Virus record (IMG/VR): IMGVR_UViG_3300042362_000293
Span: 1 to 35,685 of that record
Origin: a virus
Length of the DNA: 35,685 nt
Strand: one strand, 5' to 3'
Shown: one piece after another, positions 2,083 through 11,288 of the stretch
Position numbering within the stretch: position 1 is the first letter of the stretch
Layout of the letters: every line of letters begins with the position of its first letter
Made by a program: the position numbers and the translations under genes
The notes under the pieces: generated by a model
Databases searched by the model: none
What the model was told of the DNA's origin: nothing
The model's input: the letters and a program-made list of their open reading frames with translations, nothing else

Positions 2083-2943
2083 ATGAGTGAAAAAAACATC
2101 ACACCCGAAGCAGTAAAAAAGGATATTACTGTTCAAGTTTTAGACAAAATTAATTTGTTTAAAAACTCTGGAGAATTAACACTTCCAAAAGACTATTCAC
2201 CAGAAAACGCATTGAAAAGCGCATACCTTGTTTTGAGTGAGCAAAAAGATAAAGCAGGCAAATCTGTTTTAGAATCATGCACAAAACCAAGTATTGCAAA
2301 TGCGTTATTTTCAATGGTAACTTGGGGTTTATCTCCAATGAAAAGTCAAGTGTATTTTATTCCTTATGGAGATAAGTTACAAATTTCAAAATCATACCTT
2401 GGAAATATTGCAATTGCTAAACGTACGGCAGGAGTAAAAGAAGTAAATGCAGTTTTGGTTTACAAAAACGATTTGTTTAATATCGGAGTAAACCCAAAAA
2501 CAGGAATTTTTGAAGTAATCGAACACTCAACAAGCCTTGAAAATATCAATGATTCTGAAATAATTGGTGGCTATGCAGTTGTGATTTTTAATGATGGAAG
2601 TGTAAAAACTGAAATTATGAATATCAAACAGGTTGAGACTTCTTGGAATCAAGGGTATGCAAAAGGTGGAAGCCCGGCACATAAAAACTTTCGTGGCGAA
2701 ATGGTTAAAAAAACAATCATTAACCGCGCGTTAAAAACAGTAATCGGATCAAGTGATGATTCTGCATTATACGATGAACAAGAAGTAACTTATCCAACAA
2801 CAGAAACAAATGTTGAATTTGAAATCAATACTAAAGCAAATGCAGAGGTTATTGATTTTGAAGAAATACCTACGCCAGTAGAAGAAGTAAAAGAAGAAAA
2901 AATTGTTGACGAACCTAAATCATTTGAAGAAGCAGGATTTTAA
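2083..2943 (+). CDS. recT: RecT-family single-strand annealing protein
   Basis: Single-strand DNA annealing recombinase that pairs complementary strands during phage recombination. Seen: 286 residues, the usual RecT length, with the family core near residues 70-130: a SMVTWGLSPMKSQVYFIPYG stretch corresponds to the conserved segment before the Y-G-xKxQ region, followed by KSYLGNIAIAKR. The C-terminus is acidic (VEEVKEEKIVDE, then FEEAGF) and may contact other replication proteins. It follows the SbcC-like gene and is closed by a strong hairpin terminator ten bases after the stop, so it ends the transcript that starts near 35340. RecT next to SSB-like and metallo-beta-lactamase-fold genes is a common phage module. 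Confidence 0.88.
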   Translation: MSEKNITPEAVKKDITVQVLDKINLFKNSGELTLPKDYSPENALKSAYLVLSEQKDKAGKSVLESCTKPSIANALFSMVTWGLSPMKSQVYFIPYGDKLQISKSYLGNIAIAKRTAGVKEVNAVLVYKNDLFNIGVNPKTGIFEVIEHSTSLENINDSEIIGGYAVVIFNDGSVKTEIMNIKQVETSWNQGYAKGGSPAHKNFRGEMVKKTIINRALKTVIGSSDDSALYDEQEVTYPTTETNVEFEINTKANAEVIDFEEIPTPVEEVKEEKIVDEPKSFEEAGF

Positions 2944-2998: not shown

Positions 2999-3733
2999 AT
3001 GGAATTAATCGTAATAGGAACAGGAAGTAAAGGTAATTGCTATCTGTTAAAATCTTCAAACGAATGCTTAATTATTGAAGCAGGATGTAAATTAATTGAA
3101 GTAAAAAAAGCATTAAATTTTAACATTCAAAATATTCAAGGTATGCTCGTGTCTCACGAGCATCTTTAACTTGACCATTCTAAATACATACACGAATATT
3201 CAAAAATTGGAATGAATATTTTCACGTGCCAATCAGTAACCGAAAAATTCAATTCAATTTACACTCCGATAACAACAATTAAAAAAAACAAAACTTATCA
3301 AATCGGAAGTTTTAAAGTAATGCCTTTTGAAGCAAAACACGATGTTGAATGCTATTCTTTTTTAATCGAACACCAGGAGTGTGGTAAAATTGTTTTTGTA
3401 ACCGATAGTTACTACGTGAAATACAGATTCAACAACGTAAATCATTGGATTATTGAAGCAAACTATTCAAAGAAAATTATTGATAAAAAGATTGAAGAAA
3501 GTGGAATCAATTTGTTTTTAAAAGACAGAATATTAAAATCACACTTAAGTCTTGAAAATTGTATTTCTGCATTGAAATCAAATGATTTAAGTAATACAGA
3601 AAATATAATCTTGATTCACTTGTCAGATTCAAATTCCAATGAAAAGGAGTTTAAACAAGAAATTGAAAAACAAGTGCAACGAAATTGTATAGTTGCAAAT
3701 AACGGAATGAATATAAATCTAAATCAGTTTTAA
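2999..3733 (+). pseudogene. Metallo-beta-lactamase-fold hydrolase, interrupted at its metal motif
   Basis: Read from ATG 2999 the frame gives an MBL-fold protein of the YycJ type (start MELIVIGTGSKGNCYLLKSS) up to SHEHL, then TAA at 3167-3169, then LDHSKYIHEY in the same frame through to 3733. Removing six bases (TAACTT or an equivalent register) restores HEHLDH, the canonical HxHxDH zinc motif. Later family landmarks are present in the same frame: AKHDVECY (about residue 116), VTDS, EANYS, SHLSLEN and HLSDSNS. The 173-residue part from ATG 3212 could be translated alone but would lack the zinc site. Such hydrolases sit beside RecT and SSB genes in many phages and are suspected nucleases. Either a real loss of function, a population variant in the assembly, or an unusual decoding event; the first two are more likely. 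Confidence 0.8.
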
Positions 3734-6585: not shown

Positions 6586-7149
6586 ATGAAAAAAATCAGC
6601 ACATTATTTAAAAAAAACCCACAAGATTTGGGAAGAGTAATTAACGAAGTAAACCCTGAAAATGAATGGGTTTTTACCGATGGAATACCAACAAGAAAGT
6701 ATGATGGCACTGCAACCGCTATAATTGATGGCGAAATTTACAAACGTTATGATGTAAAGAAAGGAAGGCAAGTTCCTGATGGTGCAATACCTTGTCAAGA
6801 AGCCGATTTAATTACTGGTCATCATCCACATTGGTTAAAATGTAGCCACGATAAAAACGAAGATAAATATTTTTTTGAAGGATTTAATTCACTTGCTGAA
6901 CTTGGCAAAGTCGAAGATGGTACTTATGAATTGATTGGTGAAAAAGTGCAAGGCAATCCAGAAAAAATAGAAGGATATCACTTGGTAAAGCACGGAGCAA
7001 AAGTTTTACAAGGGTTGATTAGCCCAATGACTTTTGAAAACTTAAAAGAATACTTGGAGAAAGTAGATATTGAGGGGATTGTATTTCATCATAAGTCTGA
7101 TGGTCGTATGTGTAAATTACGAAAATCTGATTTTGGAATACGCAGGTAG
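6586..7149 (+). CDS. RNA ligase, DUF5565/RLIG1-like
   Basis: Covalent nucleotidyltransferase predicted to seal RNA ends with ATP. Seen: motif I KYDG with the AMP-accepting Lys38, motif III region YELIGEKVQGNP (114-125), motif IV EGIVFHH (163-169) and motif V CKLRKSDFG (176-184). The opening MKKISTLF and the motif spacing match the DUF5565 family, which includes human RLIG1; 187 residues is a minimal catalytic core. It is the largest gene in the cassette array. The body lies between GTTAGCAGATGGCAC (6536-6550) and GTGCTTTCTGCTAAC (7149-7163), inverted copies at 13 of 15 positions. RNA repair could counter host nucleases that cut tRNA; that role is inference. Confidence 0.85.
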   Translation: MKKISTLFKKNPQDLGRVINEVNPENEWVFTDGIPTRKYDGTATAIIDGEIYKRYDVKKGRQVPDGAIPCQEADLITGHHPHWLKCSHDKNEDKYFFEGFNSLAELGKVEDGTYELIGEKVQGNPEKIEGYHLVKHGAKVLQGLISPMTFENLKEYLEKVDIEGIVFHHKSDGRMCKLRKSDFGIRR

Positions 7150-8692: not shown

Positions 8693-10081
8693 ATGAATGC
8701 TACTATCGTTTTTCAAAAAAATTGGAATGCTATCCATGAAAAAAATGAAGATGGTAGTAATAAGTATAGGTATATAATTAATATGGGAAGTTCAAGAAGT
8801 AGTAAAACTATTTCTTTGATTCAACTTTACGATTTATACGCTAGAAAATACAAAAATAAACGTTTAACCTGCTGGAGAGATACAAAAACTGATGCAAAAA
8901 AAACAATTCTTTCTGATGCTTTAAAATTCATGAAAGCTAATAATCTGTACAAGATTAATCAAGATTTCAACAAAACAGAATCAATTTTTACATATTATAC
9001 TGATTCAACTTTTGAGATTCATGGTACCGATGATGAAGAAACAGTACATGGTCTTACACAAGATTGTACATGGTTAAATGAACCTTATAAAATTTCACGT
9101 GATACATTCGACCAATTAGATCAACGTACTTCAGATTTTGTTTTTATTGATTACAACCCAAAAAAAGGTCATTGGGTAGAAGATGTGGCAAAAGACAAAC
9201 GTGCAATAATAATTCACTCAACTTTTAAAGATAATCCTTTTTGTCCACCAGAACAACGAAATAAAATTTTATCTTATCAACCTATACAAGCCTGCGAAAT
9301 AGTTAAAAACGGATTGATAAATGAAAATGATTTATTAGCTTATAACTTCAAAGAAAACAAACTGAAGTTTACAGAAAAGCAAATAAATGAAGCTATTCGA
9401 TGTATGGAAAACGAAAACAAGAATAGTGCTAGTTTATTTAAATGGCAAGTTTATGGACTTGGTAAAAAAGCTGAAAAACCTAATCGAATTTTTAATTTTA
9501 AAGAAATATCAGATAACGAATATCATAATTTAAACTTACCCACTTATTATGCTTGCGACTGGGGAGCTGTTGATCCATGGGCGATTATTGAAGCGAAGTA
9601 TTACGATGGAAATTTATATTTGCATGAATTAAATTATTTATCCGAAAATCAATGGCGCGAACGTATCAACTCAAATGAAAGAAATTTAATTGATGCATAC
9701 AATAGGGAAGATGGCGTGGAAAATGAAGGTATTGTTTCTTGGTTGTTTGAGAAATTAAATATACCGAAAAATAGACCGATTATATGTGATACAAATAGAC
9801 CCGTTAAGATTGCACTTTTACGTCGCAGAGATTATGAGGTTTATCTTGCTGAAAAACCAAAAGGAAGTATTTTAGACGGTATAGACTTGCTTAATAACTT
9901 AAATGTATTTTACACATCAAGTAGTGAAAATATAGCGTACGAACAAGAAAATTATTCACGTAAAGTAGATAGATACGGAGTAATTTTAGAAGAGCCTGAA
10001 GATATTAACAATCACCTTTTAGACGGAACACGTTATATTGCTACATATTTACAAAGCAATGGCATTTTACTTAAATTATAA
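8693..10081 (+). CDS. terL: Terminase large subunit
   Basis: ATPase and nuclease that drives DNA into the prohead. Seen: Walker A-like GSSRSSKT (residues 32-39), Walker B with catalytic Glu in CTWLNEP (about 126-132), FIDYNP and HSTFKDNPF coupling segment, then the RNase H-like nuclease: ACDWG (first Asp), ICDTNRP and HLLDGTRY. 462 residues is normal. It overlaps the convergent portal gene by 11 bases at the 3' end; no terminator is visible at this junction, so transcripts could run into each other. Confidence 0.93.
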   Translation: MNATIVFQKNWNAIHEKNEDGSNKYRYIINMGSSRSSKTISLIQLYDLYARKYKNKRLTCWRDTKTDAKKTILSDALKFMKANNLYKINQDFNKTESIFTYYTDSTFEIHGTDDEETVHGLTQDCTWLNEPYKISRDTFDQLDQRTSDFVFIDYNPKKGHWVEDVAKDKRAIIIHSTFKDNPFCPPEQRNKILSYQPIQACEIVKNGLINENDLLAYNFKENKLKFTEKQINEAIRCMENENKNSASLFKWQVYGLGKKAEKPNRIFNFKEISDNEYHNLNLPTYYACDWGAVDPWAIIEAKYYDGNLYLHELNYLSENQWRERINSNERNLIDAYNREDGVENEGIVSWLFEKLNIPKNRPIICDTNRPVKIALLRRRDYEVYLAEKPKGSILDGIDLLNNLNVFYTSSSENIAYEQENYSRKVDRYGVILEEPEDINNHLLDGTRYIATYLQSNGILLKL

Positions 10082-11288
10082 TTCCTGTAATACTTGTGAT
10101 TTGCTCGTCTGTAAAACCTGCATCTTTCAAAGTTTTTACAGAATTACTTTTAAGATTTATTATTCGTGCCTTTTCCTGTTCGTTTTCTTGTAATACAGGT
10201 ATATGTGAATAATCCAATTCTAACCATTCATTTTTTCCATCTAAACCTAATAATTTAGTGTGATTCATTGCAATTTCTTCTGCTTCTGGAATGATTGTAG
10301 TTTGATAAGTTTGTTTTAATGCTTGTTTTTGATTTTCGAACGTAGCGCCTTTTGTAGAAGCAAATAAATCACGCGCTATTCCATACTGGTCACATAATTG
10401 GCAAAAATCGTTTTCATCTTCTTCAAATAACATTAAATCTTTTGTAGGAAAACCCATTGCTTGCCATTTCAAATTGTTATCAGAAATAATCACCTGTGAT
10501 TGTCCATCTCCTAATCCATAATCTCTTTGAAATTCTTTTTCAACTCTTTTACGTTCATCTTTTGGTAGTCCTTTGTTACCTACTGCATCTTTTGTATCAT
10601 TGGATAAAATACCAATCGCACCACGTTTTTCAATTAAGATATTACGCGTTTTCATTGCAGCGCGCAAATTAGATAAAGGCAAGTAGATTGATTTTAGTGG
10701 TGTTTCTCCTTGTAATGGATTTTTAGAATTTACTATGTAAGTATGATCGATTTCATCAATTGATAAAATGTCATTAGTTGATAACATTTTATATTCCTTG
10801 ATTATATTTTTTAATTTACTTTGCTTATACCATTTTCCAAGTGTTTGTATTTGAATATCAAAAGAAGGTAAAATTTGTAAAGATGCAGGAATACTTTTTG
10901 AATATGGTCTCAAAACATATTTATAAACATTCCCGTAAATGCTCATGTTTTCATTAATTAATCTTAAGTAGTCATTACCTTTATAAAGCACATTTGGATT
11001 TTCAAGAAGATTTACAAGCTCTGAATTTTCTTGTAATACTTTTTCACCTCTTATAATTTTGTAATGTTTCCATTGTCCGGAAGCAATTAAATCACCTTTT
11101 CTTTTTACTACACTCTGTAAATGTGGTGTCGTTGAATAAACATTATAAGCATCTATATTCTCAGGGTCTAGAATTTCTCCTTTACCACCATTTATTAAAA
11201 TGTTTACACCATAAAAAAAAGGTGTTTTATCATAATTTCTTAAGCTTCCAAAAAAACTTCTTACATCTCTTAATGAAATAAACTTCAT
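10071..11288 (-). CDS. Portal protein, HK97 type, on opposite strand
   Basis: Dodecameric portal through which DNA enters the head. 405 residues with family landmarks: YNVYSTTPHLQSVVKRKGDL (N-terminal wing), LLENPNVLYKGNDYLRLINE, IYGNVYKYV, stem region LSNLRAAMKTRNILIEKRGA, and C-terminal FCQLCDQYGIARDLFASTKG, then ATFENQKQALKQTYQ. This is the only gene here on the minus strand, placed exactly where the portal belongs, between TerL and the protease. It must have its own promoter, for which TAATTTTG at 11308-11315 is a candidate. The coding sequence looks intact. Such a solitary inversion of a head gene is unusual. Confidence 0.9.
   Translation of the reverse strand: MKFISLRDVRSFFGSLRNYDKTPFFYGVNILINGGKGEILDPENIDAYNVYSTTPHLQSVVKRKGDLIASGQWKHYKIIRGEKVLQENSELVNLLENPNVLYKGNDYLRLINENMSIYGNVYKYVLRPYSKSIPASLQILPSFDIQIQTLGKWYKQSKLKNIIKEYKMLSTNDILSIDEIDHTYIVNSKNPLQGETPLKSIYLPLSNLRAAMKTRNILIEKRGAIGILSNDTKDAVGNKGLPKDERKRVEKEFQRDYGLGDGQSQVIISDNNLKWQAMGFPTKDLMLFEEDENDFCQLCDQYGIARDLFASTKGATFENQKQALKQTYQTTIIPEAEEIAMNHTKLLGLDGKNEWLELDYSHIPVLQENEQEKARIINLKSNSVKTLKDAGFTDEQITSITGIII

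Follow-up and report, generated by a model that had tools for sequence, protein, structure and literature searches.

A stop codon within the zinc-binding motif of a phage metallo-beta-lactamase-fold gene is probably part of a programmed translational bypass site

The window, by which we mean the whole 35,685-nt stretch of the IMG/VR viral record IMGVR_UViG_3300042362_000293, carries a phage metallo-beta-lactamase (MBL)-fold hydrolase gene with an in-frame stop inside it (Table 1). Upstream of this gene lie an SbcC-like gene and then recT, its usual neighbours, and its intact sister gene in L006 matches PHROG 392 and has a good predicted structure (pLDDT 93). The metal ligands are invariant across alignments (H112, D134 and H205 in alignment A1), and the spacing of the HxHxDH motif was constant in all 159 intact loci examined. 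In Lachnospiraceae genomes, matches were mostly to a host MBL that is found in nearly every genome and is without stops. Elsewhere in the window, the portal protein gene, on the minus strand, immediately follows the large terminase gene of the plus strand, an orientation unusual among packaging genes; these adjoin a small RNA ligase gene. In L054, where the MBL gene is intact, the recT gene upstream of it carries TAG in frame (about 2594-2596) at a position that is Tyr in all compared relatives, and its frame stays open for 134 codons past this TAG; readthrough, reassignment and a nonsense mutation are alternative explanations.

Table 1. Features of the window discussed in the text
Feature	Position	Strand	Basis or remark
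RecT single-strand annealing protein gene, usual upstream neighbour of the MBL gene	2083..2943	+	Annotation of the window
Phage MBL-fold hydrolase gene, PHROG 392 type, in-frame stop inside	2999..3733	+	PHROG match via intact sister L006
5' reading frame, 56 codons, SHEHL at end	2999..3166	+	Pfam Lactamase_B match to 56 residues
RNA hairpin, perfect 9-bp stem (3143-3151 with 3155-3163), UCU loop (3152-3154)	3143..3163	+	Base abuts take-off codon
Replaced patch, 60-75% identical to L006	3148..3277	+	Starts at hairpin and insert
Putative take-off codon CTT (Leu)	3164..3166	+	Matched-codon pattern
Stop codon TAA within HxHxDH	3167..3169	+	Read from sequence
Putative landing codon CTT (Leu)	3170..3172	+	Comparison with L006
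Resumed frame from DHSK, bearing remaining metal ligands and motifs	3173..3733	+	dN/dS versus L005; alignments
Small RNA ligase gene	6586..7149		PHROG 14301, Pfam RLIG1
Portal protein gene	10071..11288	-	Pfam Phage_portal, E 1e-24

Translated, the MBL gene reads MELIVIGTGSKGNCY...GMLVSHEHL*LDHSKYI...VTDSYY...SHLSLEN...HLSDSN...NQF*, and the codons across the site are SHEH-CTT-TAA-CTT-GAC-CAT. The protein of L006 is 92% identical to that of the window, and its gene has CAT-CTG-GAC-CAC at the site, exactly 6 nt fewer, the extra nucleotides of the window being equivalent to 3167-3172. An earlier note on this DNA, made from the sequence alone, had described a TAA that interrupts the HxHxDH of an MBL-fold gene and a six-base excess at the same place; the stop is real and flanked by CTT codons, the excess is borne out by L006, and comparison with homologues shows HxHxDH retained at the site. 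A base-calling slip or chance can be excluded, since the independent contig L005 has the identical CTT TAA CTT and analogous inserts occur in two cultured Cellulophaga phages (phi18:3 and phi46:3) and in a sequenced isolate, Lachnotalea glycerini DSM 28816.

When a catalytic motif contains a stop, function has usually been lost, and recent inactivation was one explanation offered in the earlier note, together with a mixed-population artefact. Yet the insert of L005 is identical to that of the window although the protein is only 82% identical, and between the two genes dN/dS is 0.074 after the stop (at a dS of 1.32) and 0.166 before it, while other close stop-bearing pairs gave downstream values of 0.08-0.23. 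Further in-frame stops were found in none of 182 homologues between residues -45 and +130. In the best-sampled pairs, the codons from the stop to the first possible start change mainly synonymously (synonymous to other changes of 4:1 in window/L005, 5:0 in L010/L015, 6:1 in L010/L017 and 4:1 in L354/L020). Retention of the stop in the diverged L005 and purifying selection on the downstream frame thus indicate that it is not a lesion. Both explanations were abandoned because the stop is old and recurrent, because the frame beyond it is under purifying selection, and in view of the hop-site architecture described below. With recurrence in cultured phages and an isolate as well, a recent inactivation, pseudogene or assembly error is hardly credible.

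Scanning IMG/VR and bacterial genomes for the DNA pattern, with homologue searches in addition, revealed stop-bearing inserts of 5-7 nt at the same HxHxDH site in about 18 architectures (Table 2), a lower bound because the DNA scans demanded HxH, DH and a Lys codon, so that conservation of those residues is also partly by construction. The carriers are phages of Bacteroidota and Bacillota, cultured ones included, and a tree of 178 phage homologue proteins places the stop-bearing genes in 11 separate clades, with intact genes between them. In 12 of the 18 architectures both codons beside the stop encode one residue (Leu, Gln, Gly or His), against a background of about 6% (31/510) for in-frame stops elsewhere in these loci that lie between neighbouring long open stretches, and in another five the landing codon agrees with the take-off codon only at positions 2 and 3. 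Genes of the Gly class have GGT as take-off codon in eight cases out of eight, versus 20% of intact genes. L207, L208 and L211 have a 7-nt insert that fits the hop scheme poorly. Two other same-residue stops were rejected as hops, that of L147 being a conserved gene end and that of L054 the Tyr-to-TAG change in recT. The lack of TAG in the 6-nt scan had suggested avoidance of UAG (RF2-only sensing), an idea rejected because TAG is present in the 5-nt lineages and in L215.

Table 2. Stop-bearing inserts at the HxHxDH site
Take-off codon, stop region, landing codon	Carriers	Insert length	Landing codon
CTT TAA CTT	Window, L005	6 nt	Same residue
CAA TGA CAG	Cellulophaga phages phi18:3 and phi46:3, cultured; two genes in GenBank annotation	6 nt	Same residue
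CAG TGA CAA	L010 group	6 nt	Same residue
CTT TGA CTA	L014	6 nt	Same residue
CTT TGA CTT	L021	6 nt	Same residue
GGT TAA GGT	L011; Lachnotalea glycerini DSM 28816 (L024)	6 nt	Same residue
GGT TAA GGA	L020	6 nt	Same residue
CAT TAG CAC	L215	6 nt	Same residue
GGT TA GGC	L190; L191 and L213; L354	5 nt	Same residue
GGT TA GGA	L197	5 nt	Same residue
GGT TAA AGT	L009		Matches positions 2 and 3 only
GGT TG AGC	L313		Matches positions 2 and 3 only
CAT TGA GAC	L199		Matches positions 2 and 3 only
CAC TGA GAT	L203		Matches positions 2 and 3 only
TCT TA GCC	L231, more distant MBL subfamily		Matches positions 2 and 3 only

We propose, with a probability of about 0.8, that the TAA belongs to a site of programmed translational bypassing, or stop hop, that restores the zinc motif. 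The sequences show how the site is built, that it recurs, that selection acts downstream of the stop and that the hairpin is conserved; from them we infer the hop, its efficiency and its cause. A ribosome with peptidyl-tRNA-Leu on CUU (3164) would have its A site over the stop, the anticodon would detach, the mRNA would slide by 6 nt and the tRNA would re-pair with the matched CUU (3170), nine nucleotides thereby giving one Leu before decoding restarts at GAC-CAT. The hopped product of the window would keep the exact HxHxDH ligands, and terminating ribosomes would leave an inactive 56-residue fragment. For every insert except the 7-nt one, a tRNA that landed on the matched or two-of-three codon would produce HxHxDH exactly.

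Since 6-nt inserts leave an open frame beyond the stop, readthrough, with an amino acid inserted at TAA, TGA or TAG, deserves consideration. It would, however, yield HxHx-Z-xDH, two residues longer than the motif whose spacing is constant in the 159 intact loci, it would put the 5-nt inserts out of frame, and all three stops are used, all of which makes it very improbable. L354 (GGT-TA-GGC, with TAG, 5 nt) and L020 (GGT-TAA-GGA, 6 nt) are sisters on the tree whose inserts differ in length by 1 nt, and each has a Gly codon correctly placed ahead of GAT-CAT; re-pairing of the same tRNA explains both, which readthrough cannot. Code reassignment or a suppressor tRNA was rejected, as the window has no tRNA and no other in-frame interruption of this kind, and a prfB-like +1 shift was rejected because it leads into the wrong frame.

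The flanking codons also bear on the idea that RNA or DNA processing (slippage deletion, a mixed population or excision of the insert from the transcript) re-establishes the frame. In the window, CTT...CTT is a 3-bp direct repeat, and the motif would reappear if exactly 6 nt were lost. Across the carriers, however, the flanking codons are in many cases different codons for one residue (CAG/CAA, CTT/CTA, GGT/GGA), the pattern that selection acting through the tRNA would give, and the 5-nt inserts have almost no repeat. We know of no phage system that restores frames by such processing, and consider it quite improbable. Termination followed by reinitiation, giving two polypeptides that assemble as a split MBL enzyme, would agree with the start codons found 5-17 codons downstream in most cases and with the annotation of phi18:3 as two CDS. 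Yet from any standard start codon the second fragment would be without DHxK and its metal ligands, the first possible start lies 46 codons on in L014 and 31 in L009, the stretch ahead of the start evolves mainly by synonymous changes, and neither the matched codons nor the hairpin would have a role; we therefore regard reinitiation as unlikely.

The hairpin of the window, ATGCTCGTG-TCT-CACGAGCAT, ends on the base that touches the take-off codon. Its 9/9 stem is common to the window, L005, the L010 group, L014 and L021, five stop-bearing genes that count as two or three independent cases since the last three belong to one clade, and varies among them by an A-U to G-C double change at the base (one covarying pair) and one G-U. 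None of 149 intact homologues has a 9/9 stem, the best reaching 8 pairs; among the latter is L006, which just upstream of the insert differs from the window only by two synonymous, stem-weakening changes. Folding right behind the take-off codon, the 9-bp hairpin would probably drive the forward slide, much like the 5' stem-loop of T4 gene 60. A longer hairpin occupies the same place in phi18:3, and stop-less relatives of that phage also have one. Genes of the Gly and His classes lack the window-type hairpin and form other ones, in part dictated by coding; in the Gly class, the partner of CAUGGUU is the GACCAU side, in the region of the stop and landing codon (-7.6 kcal/mol in L011), and this pairing too is partly a consequence of coding. 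The upstream Ser codon is TCT in seven of eight stop-bearing genes, compared with 10.5% (p=1e-6). TCT forms the hairpin loop in the window class and is enriched in the Gly and His classes too; a fixed-distance RNA role for it was rejected, and a loop role covers the window class but not the Gly and His enrichment. Matched codons, 5- and 6-nt versions and the abutting hairpin together lend strong support to a further suggestion of the earlier note, namely that the site is a bypassed gap.

Why such inserts should exist is a separate question, and here we favour, at about even odds, immunity to homing endonucleases: the insert would protect conserved active-site DNA from HNH homing endonucleases that insert just upstream of the MBL gene. 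We favour it because HNH homing endonucleases stand directly upstream in several stop-bearing lineages and because short replaced patches begin at the insert. In six stop-bearing lineages the end of an HNH open reading frame coincides with the MBL start or lies no more than a few bases away; this frame is of the NUMOD4-HNH_3 type in L190, L191, L203, L215 and L231 and of the PHROG 374 type in L313. It is absent in the window and most stop-bearing lineages; 5 of 23 stop-bearing tree rows have an adjacent HNH gene, versus 4 of 151 intact rows (p=0.002, the rows not being independent). L213 shares its insert with L191, and the MBL genes of the two are nearly identical, but L213 has no endonuclease. 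Over 5 kb, identity between the window and L006 is about 96% outside a patch of about 130 nt; phi18:3 and phi19:3 show 100% identity just ahead of the insert and past it diverge strongly for no more than about 60-90 nt. Such patches resemble conversion tracts with an anchor at the site, the kind of trace that endonuclease cuts would leave. The TCT enrichment may reflect the target sequence of an endonuclease, and a regulatory role, in low, termination-sensitive expression of the enzyme, is possible. With confidence and doubt in equal measure, we would describe a recurrent 'mini-byp' class, in which stop inserts of 5-7 nt arise repeatedly at one active-site codon cluster, are selected as a block to homing endonucleases that target the zinc motif, and are tolerated through hairpin-aided stop-hopping.

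HNH genes also lie directly upstream of stop-less MBL genes in L056, L076, L110, L116 and L311; their motif DNA differs from TCTCAYGARCAY, possibly a natural resistance. At the L191 locus, a second endonuclease-like gene, related to the HNH type beside the L313 MBL gene, lies near RecT-type genes, between 3188 and 2270 bases upstream of the stop site. Among close relatives (L010, L012, L013, L015, L017 and window 3173-3300), the 40-50 residues immediately following HxHxDH vary strongly or form mosaics, as though this segment were frequently swapped.

That short natural bypass sites should exist, with a stop between matched codons, has long been an expectation of the recoding field, and a 2016 expert review had no known case of natural in-frame stop hopping (PMC5009743). 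Our search of the later journal literature, mostly outside subscription journals, found no natural stop hops, so that the MBL sites are apparently the first natural family of what had been seen only in artificial constructs. They offer about a dozen natural experiments that differ in tRNAs, stops, hop lengths and hairpins, some of them in culturable phages and prophages. A conflict with endonucleases at an immutable active-site sequence would provide a concrete and testable reason for such sites to evolve; if our reading is true, natural stop hops are seen here for the first time, and recoding is driven by a genetic conflict that keeps recurring. They also warn that annotation pipelines split or discard working genes.

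Among known systems, the anti-Pycsar nuclease Apyc1, an enzyme that cleaves cCMP and cUMP, has an MBL fold and HxHxDH (PMC9117128). It is detectable by profile search (7u2s, 7u2r), but the match to the MBL family here is weak and no better than that of other MBL enzymes, and the hydrolase function of the family here is a predicted one. The programmed +1 frameshift site of prfB (RF2) reads CUU UGA C, which is also present at the MBL site of L014 and L021; a +1 shift would, however, leave the MBL frame, and the MBL sites include Gln, Gly and His versions, UAA and UAG. The byps of Magnusiomyces capitatus mitochondria are longer blocks. There, short inserts are tolerated through ribosome bypassing, and landing sometimes relies on two-of-three pairing (PMC5009743), as in some MBL sites. 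Byps differ in involving mitochondrial ribosomes and 81 sites in most genes, with no single active-site motif. Synthetic stop hops with matched flanking codons work in E. coli, where nine nucleotides give one amino acid (PMC5009743); these are artificial constructs, whereas the MBL sites are natural and recurrent at one site. T4 gene 60 has a 50-nt bypass with the HNH homing endonuclease mobA just upstream (PMC5009743, PMC3014915, PMC2988022), and its gap has been suggested to be a protection from a homing nuclease (PMC5009743, PMC3014915). It differs from the MBL sites in the gene concerned, in the length of the gap (50 nt versus 5-6 nt, with the frame mostly kept here), in being unique to T4 rather than recurrent in many phages, and in its nascent-peptide signal, 25-30 residues upstream, none being known for the MBL sites. 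In both, a stop comes right after the take-off codon, the landing codon matches the take-off codon, a 5' stem-loop is present and the site lies early in the gene (codon 46 in T4, 56 here). An HNH gene upstream, as in T4, is seen in six stop-bearing lineages but not in the window or most others. The MBL site thus seems to work like programmed bypassing, of which it would be a putative member.
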